Below are positions 51,289 through 59,729 of a DNA stretch of 64,000 nt, piece after piece (the first letter of the stretch is position 1; the number at the start of each line of letters is the position of its first letter). The notes beneath the pieces were generated by a model, which was not told the origin of the DNA, ran no database searches, and worked only from the letters and a program-made list of their open reading frames with translations. The DNA is from Cladochytrium replicatum. Taxonomy: Eukaryota > Chytridiomycota > Chytridiomycetes > Cladochytriales > Cladochytriaceae. Position numbers and translations under genes: made by a program. The stretch is from NCBI GenBank assembly GCA_025526935.1, contig JAHLKD010000020.1, positions 1 to 64,000 on the forward strand, given 5' to 3'.

Positions 51289-52608
51289 ATGCCTTGTGTT
51301 CCTTTCGAACTGATCGACCAGATCTTGGTGACGCTAGGGCGATGGGCTGGTCAGCCTTTGCTGGCTTTTCAGCTGGCGGCTCAGTTTAGACGAGTTCACC
51401 TTCGCGGCATGTTTATTGGCCTGATCCCAAGTCTCGCAATGGACCGGGCCAGCGCACGCGGCCTCGTCGACGTTCTGCGTCTCCACAAGGAATCTCGCCG
51501 AGTTTCAGAGCTAAAGTACACCACAAGAGCTATGGATGAAGCGAGTCAGAACGGGCACATTGATATCCTCGAATGGTGGGCTCACAGCGGGCTTCCTTTG
51601 AGATGGACCGCGCACACCATGGATTCGGCGAGCGCAAACAACGATCTAACCGTCCTCAACTGGTGGAAAAACAGTGGCCTTGATCCGAGGTGGACGAGCA
51701 CTGCGTTGAGCACAGCGAGCAGAGACGGCCTCATGGACGTTCTCGACTGGTGGAAGCAAAGTGGGCTAAAGTTAAAATGGAACAGCATCGTCATGGATCA
51801 AGCCAGCGCGAACGGTCACGCAAAGGTACTGGAATGGTGGAAGAACAGTGGCCAAGACGTAGGATGGAGCGTGAAGTCGATGGACTGGGCGAGCATGTTT
51901 GGACACATCGAGGTGCTCGAATGGTGGACGAAGAGCGGCCTAACGCTTCGTTGGAGTGTGGACGCAGTAGACTTGGCGAGTGAGAATGGACACGTGGATG
52001 TGCTTGAGTGGTGGACAGGGAGTGGCCTGGAAGTTCGATGGACGGAAGCGGCAATGGACAGTGCGAGCATTAACGACCACGTCGACGTGCTTGATTGGTG
52101 GAAGAACAGCGGACTCCTTTTGATGTGGAGCTCACAATCGGTGGACTTGGCTTGTGCGTACGGGCATGCTGACGTGGTTCAGTGGTGGATTAACAGCGAG
52201 CTAGACGTGAAGTTCACCGCATCAGCGATCGATTTGGCGAGCATGAATGGCCACGTTGAAGTACTCAGAATACTGCAAAACAGCAAGCTGCCCCTTGTTT
52301 GGAGCGAAACGGCTATCTATGGGGCGAGCATGAACGGGCACATAGATGTCTTAGAATGGTGGAAAGAGAGTGGGCTCGAACTCAAGTACAGAGCCGATGC
52401 GATGGACGCAGCTAGTGCGAATGGGAGAATCGAAGTTCTAGATTGGTGGTTGAAAGGAGGGCTTGAAATGAAGTGGACAAAAGGAGGTTGGCAATCAGCA
52501 ATACAGAATGGCGACACGCAGACGGCCGAATGGTGGAGGGAGAACAGGCTTCTCACAAGTGAAATTCCATTCATAGATGAGAAGAAGCGAGCTGTGTTAA
52601 GGTGGTAA
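51289..52608 (+). CDS. 29-residue ankyrin-like repeat protein with F-box-like head
   Basis: An intronless 439-residue frame. The start (PFELIDQILVTLGRW) resembles an F-box-like helix. From about residue 50 to the end there are 12-13 repeats of 29 residues with the pattern MDxASxNGHxDVLEWWxxSGLxLxW, for example AVDLASENGHVDVLEWWTGS. AS.NGH.DVLEWW corresponds to AA..GH.EVV.LL of ankyrin, but the unit is four residues shorter than the 33-residue ankyrin repeat and two Trp take the place of the usual Leu pair. A protein-binding solenoid is expected. Such short-unit families are numerous in chytrids as far as I know. Partners are unknown. Confidence 0.82.
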   Translation: MPCVPFELIDQILVTLGRWAGQPLLAFQLAAQFRRVHLRGMFIGLIPSLAMDRASARGLVDVLRLHKESRRVSELKYTTRAMDEASQNGHIDILEWWAHSGLPLRWTAHTMDSASANNDLTVLNWWKNSGLDPRWTSTALSTASRDGLMDVLDWWKQSGLKLKWNSIVMDQASANGHAKVLEWWKNSGQDVGWSVKSMDWASMFGHIEVLEWWTKSGLTLRWSVDAVDLASENGHVDVLEWWTGSGLEVRWTEAAMDSASINDHVDVLDWWKNSGLLLMWSSQSVDLACAYGHADVVQWWINSELDVKFTASAIDLASMNGHVEVLRILQNSKLPLVWSETAIYGASMNGHIDVLEWWKESGLELKYRADAMDAASANGRIEVLDWWLKGGLEMKWTKGGWQSAIQNGDTQTAEWWRENRLLTSEIPFIDEKKRAVLRW

Positions 52609-53509: not shown

Positions 53510-55574
53510 TCATTCTCGAATCCAAGTCACCATATGTGATTTCCCTCTGTTTGCCCAAGAATAGTAAGGTATCGCAGTCAGCCCTCCGATTTTAAGTTTC
53601 ACAACACCACCAAAAAGCTCTGAATCCCACACTACTGAAATAGGTTTGCTTACAGGCACAGCAGCAGTGTGAAGGTCAAAATCGTCAGGATTGTCCAATG
53701 ACTCAAAGCAGTAGACAAGGGGTCCACGCATGATTGCATAGCGTCCAACGTTGTCCTCCACTCGCAGATCCGCGCGTATGCGAACGGGATCCATTTGGAA
53801 AGCCAAGGACACAACATCTCCGACCGACCAAAGTCTTGTAAAACTTATGTAACCGCAGATTACTGTTGCGTTGAATGCTTCCCCATTCACAGAAACTGTG
53901 TAGGCCGAGGTGGACCCGGCTTTAATCTCATTTGCATTCATTGGCGAGATCTTGCTGTAGAGAGATGAAGCAACCAACTGTCCGCATGCCCAACCCGGGA
54001 CGCGCAACCGAATGGTAAACACAGCTGGGCAAGTGATATCCTCGATCGTTAAGTCAGCATGACCGTACCATGGGTACTTTGAATCCTGCTTGATTCGAAT
54101 ACGGGTGCCGTCATCGAGTGCAAGGTTCGCTGTCCCCCCAGCGTATAAATTGACATAAATCTCCGACCCGCGCTGAGCATACTGATATCCCGAGACAGAA
54201 GCAAGGAAGCGGGTCATGTTGCCGGGGCAACAGGCGCAACCGAACCACGGCTGGCGCTCATAGTCTCCGAAAGATTCGAGAGGGTTGGGGTAGAAAAATC
54301 CCTTCCCGTCAAGGGAAATTCCAGCCAGAAGGGCATTGTAGAGCGTAAGTTCGAGGATGTCGATGTACTTTGAATCGCCTGTGAGCAAGAACTGCCGGTG
54401 GTTCCAGTACACGTTTGCGATGGATGCACACGTTTCAGCATACGCCGTCGCGTTTGGGAGCTCAAACGCATCGCCGAATGCCTCACCATCGTCCCGAGCA
54501 CCAATTCCTCCGGTCTTTAAGAGAACTACTTAGATGATGCAATATGCGGGCACATGTACTTACGATGTAAAGCTTGGACGACACAACGTCATTCCAAATC
54601 CTATCAATGGCTTTTTTGAACGATTTTTCTGTAGTCAGCGCCGCAACATCGGCCATTCCAGCGTACATGTACCCGGCGCGGACAGCATGACCCACAGCGG
54701 TTCTCTGTTTGACCACGGGGACGTGCGCTTGGTTATACTCCCGGGCTCCATCATGGCCGTCAGGATGGCGAGAGTCCAAAAAGAATTTCGCAAGCTTCAA
54801 GCATCGGCTCTGACCAGTGATCCTGAACAGCCTAACTAGCCCCATTTCAATGATCTGGTGACCAGGAAAAATGGACTGCTTTCCAGGACCAAAAGTAGCT
54901 TCAAGCAAATCCACTGTCCGCAATGCTATGTCAAGCAAGGATCTCTTTCCCGTGGCCTGATAATGCGCTACCGCAGCGTCGTATAGATGGCCGAAGTTGT
55001 AAAGTTCATGGCTTCCAACTCGTTCCAAAGACCATCGTTCAGGCCCGGCAGCGCGTTGCGGATGCTCAGGGTTGAATGTTCGGGCGGTGTACAGGTAACC
55101 GTCAGCTTCCTGTGCAGCTGCAATCTTTTCGATCAACAAGTCCAGATAGAGCGATAGGTCAGGGTCTGGGCGAGCAGACAGCGAAAACGAAGCTCCTTCG
55201 ATAACTTTATATATGTCGGTATCATCGAACGGATACTCAGTATATTCATAGTCCAACCAAGGCTGCCCCTTCAGTGCGGCAGCAGCAGCCTCGAAATTGA
55301 GGACACGTTTGGATGCGATACATTGCTCGAATGCGAACGGGATCGTAACGGCTCGATTGGTCTCGATCCGGGGAGCCCAAAATTTGTCAGTCAATCGAAC
55401 AGAGGTGAAAGGAACCGGTTTGATAGGATAATCACTTGAAAGAAAGGTGTACGGAGGAGGCAGCTCGTACAATGGCTGTTTCTCGTTTCGTGAGACTTTC
55501 TTGTCGTCCAGAAACTCTGCATCGGTTGCATGCGTTCGTTTGTCGTTCGGCACACAGCACCACAATCCCCCCAT
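53510..55574 (-). CDS. GH127 beta-L-arabinofuranosidase, lipid-anchor-like N-terminus
   Basis: Two exons (55574-54564 and 54514-53510) give 671 residues. The body is GH127 (formerly DUF1680): VRLTDKFWAPRIETNRAVTI, DDTDIYKVIEGASFSLSARP, DGYLYTARTF, GHAVRAGYMYAGMADVAALT, ETCASIANVYWNHRQFLLTG and GCACCPGNMTRFLAS. In the family the Glu and Cys of ETC and the two Cys of CCPG bind zinc and one Cys is the nucleophile; all are present. It releases L-arabinose from plant hydroxyproline-rich glycoproteins or arabinan. The upstream GTG frame lacks an ATG, so the protein starts MGGLWCCVPND, a predicted N-myristoylation plus palmitoylation site rather than a signal peptide. With one intron and a mainly bacterial family, transfer is plausible. 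Confidence 0.9.
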
Positions 55575-55798
55575 CGCGATCCACACACTTAAGCGTGGGA
55601 ACTTGCTATCCGGTCACGGGTGTGGAAGAATGGCATTTCGCGCCACACTTTGCATTTACAAACTTTTCGGCAGAACGGACGAACGTTTAATCATTTTGGG
55701 GTGGGATTTCCAGAGACCATTTCGGATATATAGGTGCGGGCCATCCACCACTCTGTCATCGTGCTCTGATCCCCCTGCTTCAACTCAATAGTGATCTT

Positions 55799-56732
55799 AT
55801 GGACGCTGAGATTGCCAGATCATTCCCTCTCGGGTTCCTCTATCCCATCCTCGTATCATGGGAGTTCCCCATCTTCACGTCGGCCGCATACTTCTTCATT
55901 GTCAAGGCTGTCAACCCCCCTCCACGTCCAAAAGGGACGCCAGCTCCGAAAGAGGAGAAGAACAGCGCACTGTTCACGGCGTTCGTTTTCCTTCACAACC
56001 TCGCGCTTTTCGTTTTCTCGGCTGCTACATTCCTGTCAATGACGCCAGTCGTCCTGAGGAACTTTTCGTCAAAATCGTACACCGAAGCTGTGAGTACCGC
56101 CGGAGTATGATTGCAAGCGTCATTATTCTCACACTCGTTCCGAAGTTGTGTGATAAGGAAGGTGACATGTGGACGTCGGGACTTTTTAAGTGGTCTTGGT
56201 TGTTCTACCTCAGCAAGTACTATGAAATCATGGACACTGTCATTCTTCTGGTGAAGGGAAAGCGAACTTCACTCTTACAGTCATATCACCACGCCGGTGC
56301 GATCATCTCGATGTGGTTGGGGTATGTAGACTTTCACATTTTCACCATCTCCACCAACTGACGTCATTCTTTCCCAGTGTTCGAAGCAGGGCGACCGCTA
56401 TCTGGATCTTTGTCGTGTTCAACTCGTTTATTCACACCCTCATGTACTTCTACTACGCGCTGACGACAATCCACATCCGCCCTCCCTCATTGCTGAAGCA
56501 GAGTCTCACTCGTCTTCAGATCAGCCAGTTCTTGATCGGCGGCTCACTTGCGACTTCATACTTGTTCGTTCCCCAGTGCATGAAGCAGCAGCCGGGTCTT
56601 CTTCTTTCGGAAATGTCTGCCTACTATGTCAACGTCAGCTACCTCGTTCCCCTTACGTGGCTGTTCATCGACTTCTTCAAGCAGAGCTACAACGCAAAGG
56701 GAGCAAAGTCGGGAACTAAGAAGATAAACTAA
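55799..56732 (+). CDS. ELO-family fatty acid elongase
   Basis: Three exons join in frame to about 275 residues. It adds malonyl-CoA to acyl-CoA in the ER (3-ketoacyl-CoA synthase step). Family motifs: WLFYLSKYYEIMDTVILLVK (KxxExxDT), LLQSYHHAGAI (His box), FNSFIHTLMYFYYAL (NxxxHxxMYxYY) and a basic C-terminus (KGAKSGTKKIN) acting as ER retrieval. Multiple membrane helices are visible. The His box reads QxxHH rather than HxxHH, a feature of polyunsaturated fatty acid elongases of lower eukaryotes, so C18/C20 PUFA substrates are likely. It is divergent from GH127 with 224 bp between start codons. Confidence 0.93.
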
Positions 56733-56884
56733 CGTAGGAAGTCACCCGTTGTGCAGAGGGCCTGCCAAAATTACTTCGTTTTCGTGTTGAGTATCAACAT
56801 CACTATTGCTGTTTGTGGTGGACATTGGTAATGAATACCGTTTCCCTTATCTTCTTTGATTTCATTCTTGTCTTTGTGGGACAA

Positions 56885-56970
56885 CCATAACCAAACTGAA
56901 TATATTTGCTGTGAACCATGCTGGCACCATAACCAAACTGAATATATTTGCTGTGAACCATGCTGGCACC
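56885..56970. repeat. 42-bp perfect tandem duplication
   Basis: Two copies of a 42-bp unit beginning ATAACCAAACTGAATATATT in the space between the convergent ELO and methyltransferase genes, in sequence that would form the 3' UTR of one or both. Confidence 0.9.
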
Positions 56971-57045
56971 AAATGGTTGTGATTTTTTATAACGACGGCA
57001 ACCAATATGTAGATTGCTAGCGGCAATTCATTATCGGTGTTCCAT

Positions 57046-58912
57046 TCAGTGTGAGTGGGAATGGCCATGAGAGTGATCATGAGCGTGGTCGTGTGAATGA
57101 TCATGAGAATGCTCATGGCCGTTGAACTGATCATGAGAGTGCCCCGAATGCGGTGAGCTCGCGGCATGTCCGGACTCCGTCTTCGGTCCTTGCCCCATGT
57201 CCATCGTACCGTCGACCTTCTTCTCTGCAACAAAAAACCAAGACTCGTATATGTACTTCAGCATGCTGTTCTGGTTTGCTGTGTACGTATTGACAAAGTG
57301 GTTCTCCTCCTGTACGTAATGTAGAGTAAGGGGAATGAAAACCAACAGACGGTTTAGTATGTCACACCAGGAATTGGAAATCGTATTGTAGAATAGTCGC
57401 ACGAAGCTCGTCTTCGTTTAATTCGATAGATGGCTCATTCTGCATCCCTTCCCAGTGATACAGTAATGGACCTAGCGACAGGGAAGTAAGCGTTTCTTCT
57501 TGATGTTAAGCAATGACGAACCAATGTTGATCCAATATCCTCCGGGCCTGAGCGCTTTCTTGATCGTCTCAATATAGTCCAGTACATTCTTTGCAGTGTC
57601 CATAAAATAGCAGGTGACAATGACACTCCATTTTCCTAAGGAAACAAATGAGGAATTTCCCCTCTCCGGAGAGCACATCCATTTACCTGCATTCTCTGGA
57701 TCTCCGTATACTTCCAGGAAATCACCAGCGACCATAGAGAAGTCTACGGTGGGAGGTATGTTTCCCGGAAGAATATCCGGGATCTGTGACGACATGAGGT
57801 GATGCCGTGCCGATCGGCTGTTGGAAAACGAGTGGATCCAGGGGTATACTTCAAACTGTTTTGAGTGCTTTGGTCTATGAATCGGTTGAGAATCCCCTAT
57901 CACACAAACTCTCGAGCGTACTTATTCAGGATGAAGTTTGATGCGAAAAGCTGGATTAAAGGGAATTTGGTCAAATCAATCCACAAGTATAGAGAAGCTT
58001 TACCAACCATGTAAAAACTAAACTCGTTTCCTGAACATACAATGTTAGGATTTAGCAATTCAATGTTTTGGACGTAACTGACCTTGGCATGTGAACCCTG
58101 GCATGGCGATTTCAAGACAACGAAGTCAGTATGATATCACACAAAAGTCCTTGAACATCCCACCAGCTTTTGCAATGTCGTACGCCAGCCTTCCTAACCC
58201 GGCCCCCGGAACAAGGATCTGAATTGAGCCACTGTTGAAAATTTTGAGTCATAAACCGATTCACACTCAACCATTCTTTTCTACTACCGCTGCTCAAATG
58301 GCACGTCATGGAAGAGCTGATCGAGCGTTCTCAGTATCGGTCCGTACGTTGCTTCTCTCTCCGGTCTTCCCTTAACGAGGAATAAATTTTACGCAGTTGA
58401 GCCAATATCTTCGACATACCTCTTCGGACCAGTCTCGAACAAGCTGCCGCAATGTGCTTCTCACTTTGTCCATATCTCCTTCCGTGACGGGAAGCTATTG
58501 ATCTCATCAGCCAAAAGGTTGGGAATCATCATTCATAAAACTAACATCGTCTTTCTTCGATTGTCCAGGCTGGGTCGGCGCAACGTGATCCGCAAGTATC
58601 TGATTGATAAGGTTGGCATTGTACTTTAAGCGCATCTCGACCGCATCCAGCTTCCGTCCGAAGTCCGTGTGGGCCAGAAGTAACTGTCTCTGAGCAGCCT
58701 TTACGAATTTCGGGTCGGAGAAGTCGTTTCTTCGCTTCTGGATCTGTGCCAGGCCGTGTTGGTAATAGTTTCGAAAAGCACGAACAACTTTTTCATAATG
58801 CTTTAAGAATGAGATCAGAATAAATGGTTAGTTCTAGAAGCTTTTCAGTGTACACCTGCTGCTCGAGCAGACGGTCCGCCGGGTCGACGGATTCAGGGTC
58901 GTTGAGGAACAT
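57046..58912 (-). CDS. carnosine N-methyltransferase family protein, His-rich tail
   Basis: Belongs to the N2227/CARNMT1 family, which methylates the pi nitrogen of histidine in carnosine and in some proteins. The start ATG 58912 gives MFLNDPESVDPADRLLEQQ, then HYEKVVRAFRNYYQHGLAQI after an intron. SAM-binding motifs: IQILVPGAGLGRLAYDIA and GNEFSFYM. Then IVTCYFMDTAKNVLDYIETI, LRPGGYWINIGPLLYHWEG, PSIELNEDELRA and YTANQNSMLKYIYESWFFVA, all as in the family. After the family's normal end a linker (KTESGHAASSPHSG) leads to a tail in which His occupies every second position for 12 His (57108-57049). That tail is not part of the usual family. Confidence 0.9.
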
Positions 58913-59729
58913 TTCACACTTTAGTGTTAAGCCACAACCAACCAGTAAATCCACGGGTACGACCATATGAACATATGAATGGAAGTGCTTAGACAACTTC
59001 CCGGCAAAGTGTCCATGCAATCACGTCGAGAATCGGCCCAGTCCCAAATTCAACCGGAATAGAAATGATGCAAGCGGAAACCTTCAAACTCCACTGCTTT
59101 GAGACCGCAACTGGTGGGCAAGATGTTGATACCGGCATGAGGAGGGGTACGAGGTTTACTCCGACTATGTCATGAAGAATCCGTTCTACACACCTGAAAT
59201 GCGGGTCCGATCAGAGCTTTTTGATATGGACTGCAGCGACTAGTGAAGCACTTTATCTCCGTGTGAATCCGGAAAATCATACCACTGTTGCCCCAGTCAC
59301 AATTGAAGTTTGTAAATAGACATTCGCCATAACACATTCCCGTGTTGTGTGGCATGAATCCCTTCCGAGTCAACTTCCAGTCAAGGCTATTCGCAACATC
59401 GGCACGAAGACTTGTTTTCATGCCTTCGGTTTTGGGAGCATATTTTCCAATGAGTATGCAAAGCGTTAACAAGAATCAAAAGAAAACTTTGAGAATGATG
59501 TATAACGAACATAGAGGCAATTGCATTAAGAACACCCTTTGTTTCGCAGGAAGTTCAGACATGTGGCAATGTCTTTCTTTGTCCTAAAACCAATACGGCA
59601 AAGCTCTTTGGGTACTTGGTTCCCGGAATTGATCATCCCAGTCGTGTACCAAAATGAATTTCTTTATGTTTCTGGAAGCCCATGATCCGGCCAGCATGTT
59701 CAGTTTCAATAGCACACTTTCCCAGAAAG
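58913..59729. other. spacer, no gene supported
   Basis: Short minus-strand frames (for example one ending near 59170) lack joinable splice structure. Nothing recognised; possibly more of the decayed duplicate seen just beyond. Confidence 0.4.

Follow-up and report, generated by a model that had tools for sequence, protein, structure and literature searches.

A CARNMT1-family enzyme of Cladochytrium replicatum with a C-terminal tail of alternating histidines

A gene of the chytrid Cladochytrium replicatum encodes a CARNMT1-family protein that ends in a tail of alternating histidines, which makes it a variant of the known CARNMT1 enzyme. The gene lies in a stretch of 64,000 nucleotides (here called the window; contig JAHLKD010000020.1, positions 1 to 64,000), which is part of contig C20 in the searched assembly of 50.5 Mb and 198 contigs. 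The reading that we prefer, tentatively and with a rough probability of ~0.35, is that of a conserved CARNMT1 carrying a flexible, metal-binding histidine strip that may act as a weak substrate in cis. The gene and its parts are as follows.

57046 to 58912, minus strand: CARNMT1-family gene, 12-exon model, 424 amino acids (Pfam CARME, E = 1.7e-98; human CARNMT1 structure 5yf0, E = 2e-91)
57217 to 58912, minus strand: enzyme core, residues 1 to 368, exons 1 to 12, with E187 (human E229) and D277 (human D316) conserved
57046 to 57309, minus strand: last exon, holding the conserved end of the core (final WFFVAEKK) and the entire tail
57049 to 57216, minus strand: C-terminal extension, residues 369 to 424; 56 residues, including 16 His, 8 acidic residues, and 1 basic residue (K/R)
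57049 to 57117, minus strand: run of 12 alternating His, residues 402 to 424, with S (five), D (three), E (one), A (one), and G (one) as the middle residues
57046 to 57048, minus strand: stop codon

The model contains 11 GT-AG introns of 47 to 66 nucleotides and yields 424 residues without an internal stop. Its exon boundaries were set by eye, guided by the conserved family sequence, and the start ATG at position 58912 was also picked by eye, so that the N terminus may be longer. Family membership of the product is firm at the level of sequence similarity: residues 106 to 368 aligned to positions 6 to 267 of the 268 positions of the CARME profile (PF07942) with a score of 329.7 bits, well above the curated cut-off of 27, and the only other profile match at an E value of ≤0.001 was a weak one to Methyltransf_23. 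The core shared with human CARNMT1 (PDB entries 5yf0, 5yf1, and 5yf2) spans residues 9 to 367, and 150 of the 349 residues aligned to 5yf0 are identical. Tyrosines at human positions 386, 396, and 398, which we take to be functionally important, are also conserved here. In the same alignment, E187 corresponds to human E229, which is involved in cofactor binding (PMC12275196), and D277 corresponds to human D316, which is involved in catalysis (PMC6400499). The profile and the human alignment thus uphold the original prediction of a CARNMT1-family enzyme, and its statement that this family methylates histidine agrees with the published work (PMC12275196).

The CARME profile gave three matches in the genome (four candidates scored), all of them exons of this gene, which is the sole intact CARNMT1 orthologue that we found by sequence search. 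A region of contig C7 (560506 to 564286) matches the 5' half of the gene with 69% nucleotide identity, and stop codons interrupt both significant tblastn alignments. A second tailed copy at this location was rejected on three grounds: the coverage of the 5' half only, the internal stops, and the lack, across 3,781 bases read in six frames, of any run of at least three alternating His. On C7, matches to Sybindin (a TRAPP subunit) lie beside the CARNMT1 fragment; in the window (58022 to 58869 and 59008 to 59266), shorter Sybindin pieces adjoin the intact CARNMT1 gene. The arrangement looks like complementary loss after duplication, with the C7 Sybindin recognized from matches and not as an intact gene. 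Regions C1:932679-973434 and C4:277859-306855 share the order of their ZIP, cation-efflux, and chitin-synthase matches, and near-identical pairs of C3H matches are located on contigs C13 and C15, C24 and C25, and C22 and C67. This pairing points to the duplication of large blocks, to diverged haplotypes, or to a hybrid genome. Among the other families searched for, Chitin_synth_1N had seven matches in the genome and the flagellar protein IFT46 had seven exon-level matches on two contigs. Together with the short introns, these matches point to a zoosporic fungus of the chytrid type, although they would also suit other flagellated lineages. The neighbors on the 3' side of the CARNMT1 gene are the following.

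55799 to 56732: ELO fatty-acid elongase, in pieces, converging with the CARNMT1 gene
53510 to 55586: GH127 beta-L-arabinofuranosidase, two open frames with catalytic, middle, and C-terminal domains
51289 to 52608: ankyrin-repeat protein of 439 residues, DVLEWW-type units repeated within a single open frame

An exact 42-base tandem duplication (2.1 copies, 100% identity) occupies positions 56884 to 56971, in the interval where the elongase and CARNMT1 genes converge.

CARNMT1 acts mainly on C3H proteins that function in RNA processing (PMC12275196). The genome contains 21 C3H zinc-finger matches at an E value of ≤0.001 (51 candidates scored), and six of these resemble human target peptides: two are U2AF1-like (L012 and L013), two RNF113-like (L007 and L008), and two ZC3H15-like (L020 and L021), the names being given by likeness to the human U2AF1, RNF113A, and ZC3H15 peptides printed in PMC12275196. 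Since such sites are present, the enzyme probably retains its usual function, and it most likely methylates N1 of histidines in C3H zinc-finger proteins of splicing and other RNA processing. Orthology is no proof of activity, as the fruit-fly CARNMT1 orthologue reportedly senses AdoMet and does not act as a methyltransferase (PMC12275196).

The family core stops at residue 368, and the same last exon encodes 56 more residues, the final 23 of which have His at every second position. Four further His stand just upstream of this alternating run, and no two His of the tail are adjacent. At the DNA level the tail is genuine and in frame with the core, and it is unusual within the part of the genome sampled. 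Both the tail of 12 alternating His and its position as an addition past the family core had been predicted, and both were borne out. The further claim that such a tail is absent from the usual family stands for the Pfam profile and the solved human chain only. The latter has 362 residues, aligns through residue 360, and has no comparable tail. Chain 5x62, which we take to be the budding-yeast CARNMT1 protein, belongs to the same family (E = 3.1e-37); its alignment ends at residue 320 of 406, leaving its C terminus unaligned.

When the 56 residues of the tail were shuffled 200,000 times, the alternation of 12 His never recurred, and the longest run reached 10. In six frames of 264,000 bases (the window and 20 further stretches, each of 10 kb; 0.5% of the genome), there was one run of at least five alternating His, the CARNMT1 tail itself, and two runs of at least four, one of them again the tail. 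A six-frame search of the whole genome with the tail peptide, which may under-report simple sequence, returned only the tail (one match, three candidates scored). Given the small sample and the tendency of the peptide search to overlook simple sequence, genome-wide rarity of the tail is likely but unproven. No sequence resembling the tail was found among 177,635 distinct sequences of solved proteins at an E value of 0.1. Searches with the core protein gave ten pattern matches, none confirmed, in a collection of prokaryotic contigs and no match in a collection of viral contigs, both collections being uninformative on fungi. In the literature, queries on CARNMT1, under this and related names, together with histidine-rich, polyhistidine, or HxH sequences gave no tailed enzyme by title among the matches listed, and there were no matches for a histidine-rich tail of a methyltransferase or for histidine methylation in fungi, including chytrids. 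The query for CARNMT1 "automethylation" also gave no match, a result that depends on spelling, as PMC12275196 writes "auto-methylation."

A serious rival to a functional tail is neutral drift, and we regard it as possible, though not as the better account: the ancestral stop would have been lost and a downstream His-coding repeat translated as a neutral or weakly constrained extension, with metal binding only incidental. Consistent with this, the tail is of low complexity and is restricted to the C-terminal edge of the protein, Tandem Repeats Finder (TRF) reports arrays of period 12 (75% matches) and period 30 (85% matches) over it, and the exact duplication in the adjoining 3' region indicates that short repeats arise locally. 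The codons were compared with 5,000 resampled draws that followed the synonymous codon usage of 42 long open frames. The identity between the H-x units was 0.597, against 0.576 ± 0.020 in the draws (P = 0.16); codon identity for the same residue was 0.430 (0.460 ± 0.057 when resampled), and that for the nearest same residue was 0.353 (0.424 ± 0.116). The tail codons are therefore as varied as a random synonymous choice, which argues against a fresh repeat expansion, and recent DNA slippage as the origin of the tail is unsupported by the resampling, although the TRF arrays remain. What speaks against a neutral extension is that, despite this randomization, every one of the 12 His codons of the run (7 CAT and 5 CAC) has kept positions 1 and 2 intact, with a P value of ~0.001 or ~0.013 if three or two, respectively, of the 12 third positions changed independently, a rough estimate that assumes one founding codon. 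The intact His codons, varying middle residues, and randomized synonymous sites would fit constraint on His spacing, which is suggestive only.

The strongest support for the tail as a CARNMT1 substrate is the precedent, by analogy, of auto-methylated His tags. Recombinant human CARNMT1 with an N-terminal 6xHis tag strongly auto-methylates, the authors having only inferred that the tag is the methylated part (PMC12275196), and the tag of METTL9 was auto-methylated as well (PMC7873184). These proteins likewise present a His tract on a 1-methylhistidine enzyme, but their tags are artificial, whereas the tract of C. replicatum is natural, C-terminal, and alternating, with acidic and small residues between the His. 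The preferences of the enzyme for its peptides point in the other direction. Good CARNMT1 peptides mostly have F or Y at position -2, F being a near-absolute requirement in three of the four tested, and removal of negative charge improved methylation of one peptide (PMC12275196). None of the 16 tail His has F or Y at -2, and none has the C at -4 that is a feature of C3H fingers, so that the usual CARNMT1 substrate features are lacking; together with the excess of acidic over basic residues (eight to one), the missing aromatic residue counts against the tail as a substrate. Most His of a 6xHis tag have no F or Y at -2 either, and tethering may thus override the local preference. Auto-methylation of the tail is plausible on this analogy.

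The substrate rule of METTL9 offers a second comparison. The original prediction had called METTL9 related to CARNMT1; this is correct in that both are seven-beta-strand enzymes, but beyond the hallmark motifs METTL9 has no significant homology to other human enzymes of this class (PMC7873184). CARNMT1 is the other known human enzyme that forms 1-methylhistidine in proteins (PMC12269839). METTL9 is reported to be missing from fungi (PMC7873184 and PMC12269839), and we obtained no match to its DREV profile (PF05219) in the genome (one candidate scored) by the same method that recovered the CARME exons, the DREV control being prokaryotic only (matches in 3 of 14 prokaryotes, above the cut-off in 1). 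The 424-residue protein itself had no DREV match at an E value of ≤0.001. The HxH rule is therefore not simply transferable to the tail. Like METTL9 substrates such as the HxH stretches of SLC39A7, the tail has alternating His, and the middle residue is A, G, or S in 7 of its 11 HxH units; of these seven, only three have no acidic flank. In the other four of the 11 units the middle residue is D or E, which METTL9 rejects; it also tolerates acidic flanks poorly (PMC13027442).

In the mechanism that we propose, the tail would be a flexible strip of alternating His able to bind divalent metals such as zinc, and its tether would let it reach the active site of the same subunit or of a dimer partner, where it may serve as a weak substrate in cis or in trans within the dimer. 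The His would be shielded when metal bound and methylated when free, and the tail could then compete with the real substrates or report the metal supply. Metal binding by the tail is very likely as chemistry; a regulatory role, for instance as the zinc sensor of the original prediction, is conjectural. The zinc binding of an HxH peptide becomes weaker on methylation (PMC7873184 and PMC13027442), whereas the zinc affinity of a C3H finger peptide was unchanged upon methylation by CARNMT1 (PMC10546973), which counts against the mechanism. Human CARNMT1 is described as dimeric in solution (PMC12275196). Its methylation of proteins is inhibited by carnosine and unaffected by anserine (PMC10546973). 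A tethered His competitor is thus a reasonable proposition, and it could lower the output of the enzyme. Zinc transporter families are present in the genome, with 14 ZIP matches and 23 cation-efflux matches.

Alternatively, the tail could be a metal store or buffer that is not methylated, which we consider unlikely. Dense, alternating His are typical of metal-binding strips, and a His-rich C-terminal tail after a folded core is also present in SlyD and HypB, bacterial nickel chaperones whose cores are unrelated to CARNMT1. However, we are aware of no reason for a methyltransferase to deliver metal, and an unmodified tail would be less likely where the host protein itself methylates histidine.

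Comparably unlikely is an address tag, by which the tail would localize the enzyme to condensates such as nuclear speckles that hold its splicing-factor substrates, U2AF1 and RNF113. The idea is attractive because CARNMT1 substrates include splicing factors (PMC12275196), with homologous sites in this genome, and because His repeats send human proteins to speckles, six His being enough for a heterologous protein according to a section heading of PMC2644819. However, the published signal consists of five or more consecutive His, whereas those of the tail alternate, and a text search of PMC2644819 found no mention of alternating or spaced His.

An annotation artefact, with the tail spliced out or untranslated, is very improbable: the CARNMT1 gene model is computational, but the core end and the tail lie in a single exon whose frame stays open throughout, so that the core is not spliced to the tail.

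The most far-reaching version of the preferred reading, which we consider a long shot, is that of a natural self-methylating enzyme whose tail would serve as a cis substrate and, at the same time, as a metal gate; zinc would protect the tail, and shortage would expose it and divert the enzyme from zinc-finger splicing factors. If this were true, zinc status would be linked to RNA processing. The protein-methylating role of CARNMT1 was reported only in 2023 to 2025 (PMC12275196 and PMC10546973), and carnosine competition is the one hint of its regulation that we met (PMC10546973). An enzyme that naturally carries such a His strip, in a genome in which METTL9 was not detected, would offer a tractable case for cis methylation of alternating His, and it would also allow zinc competition and the tuning of U2AF1-type finger methylation to be addressed.
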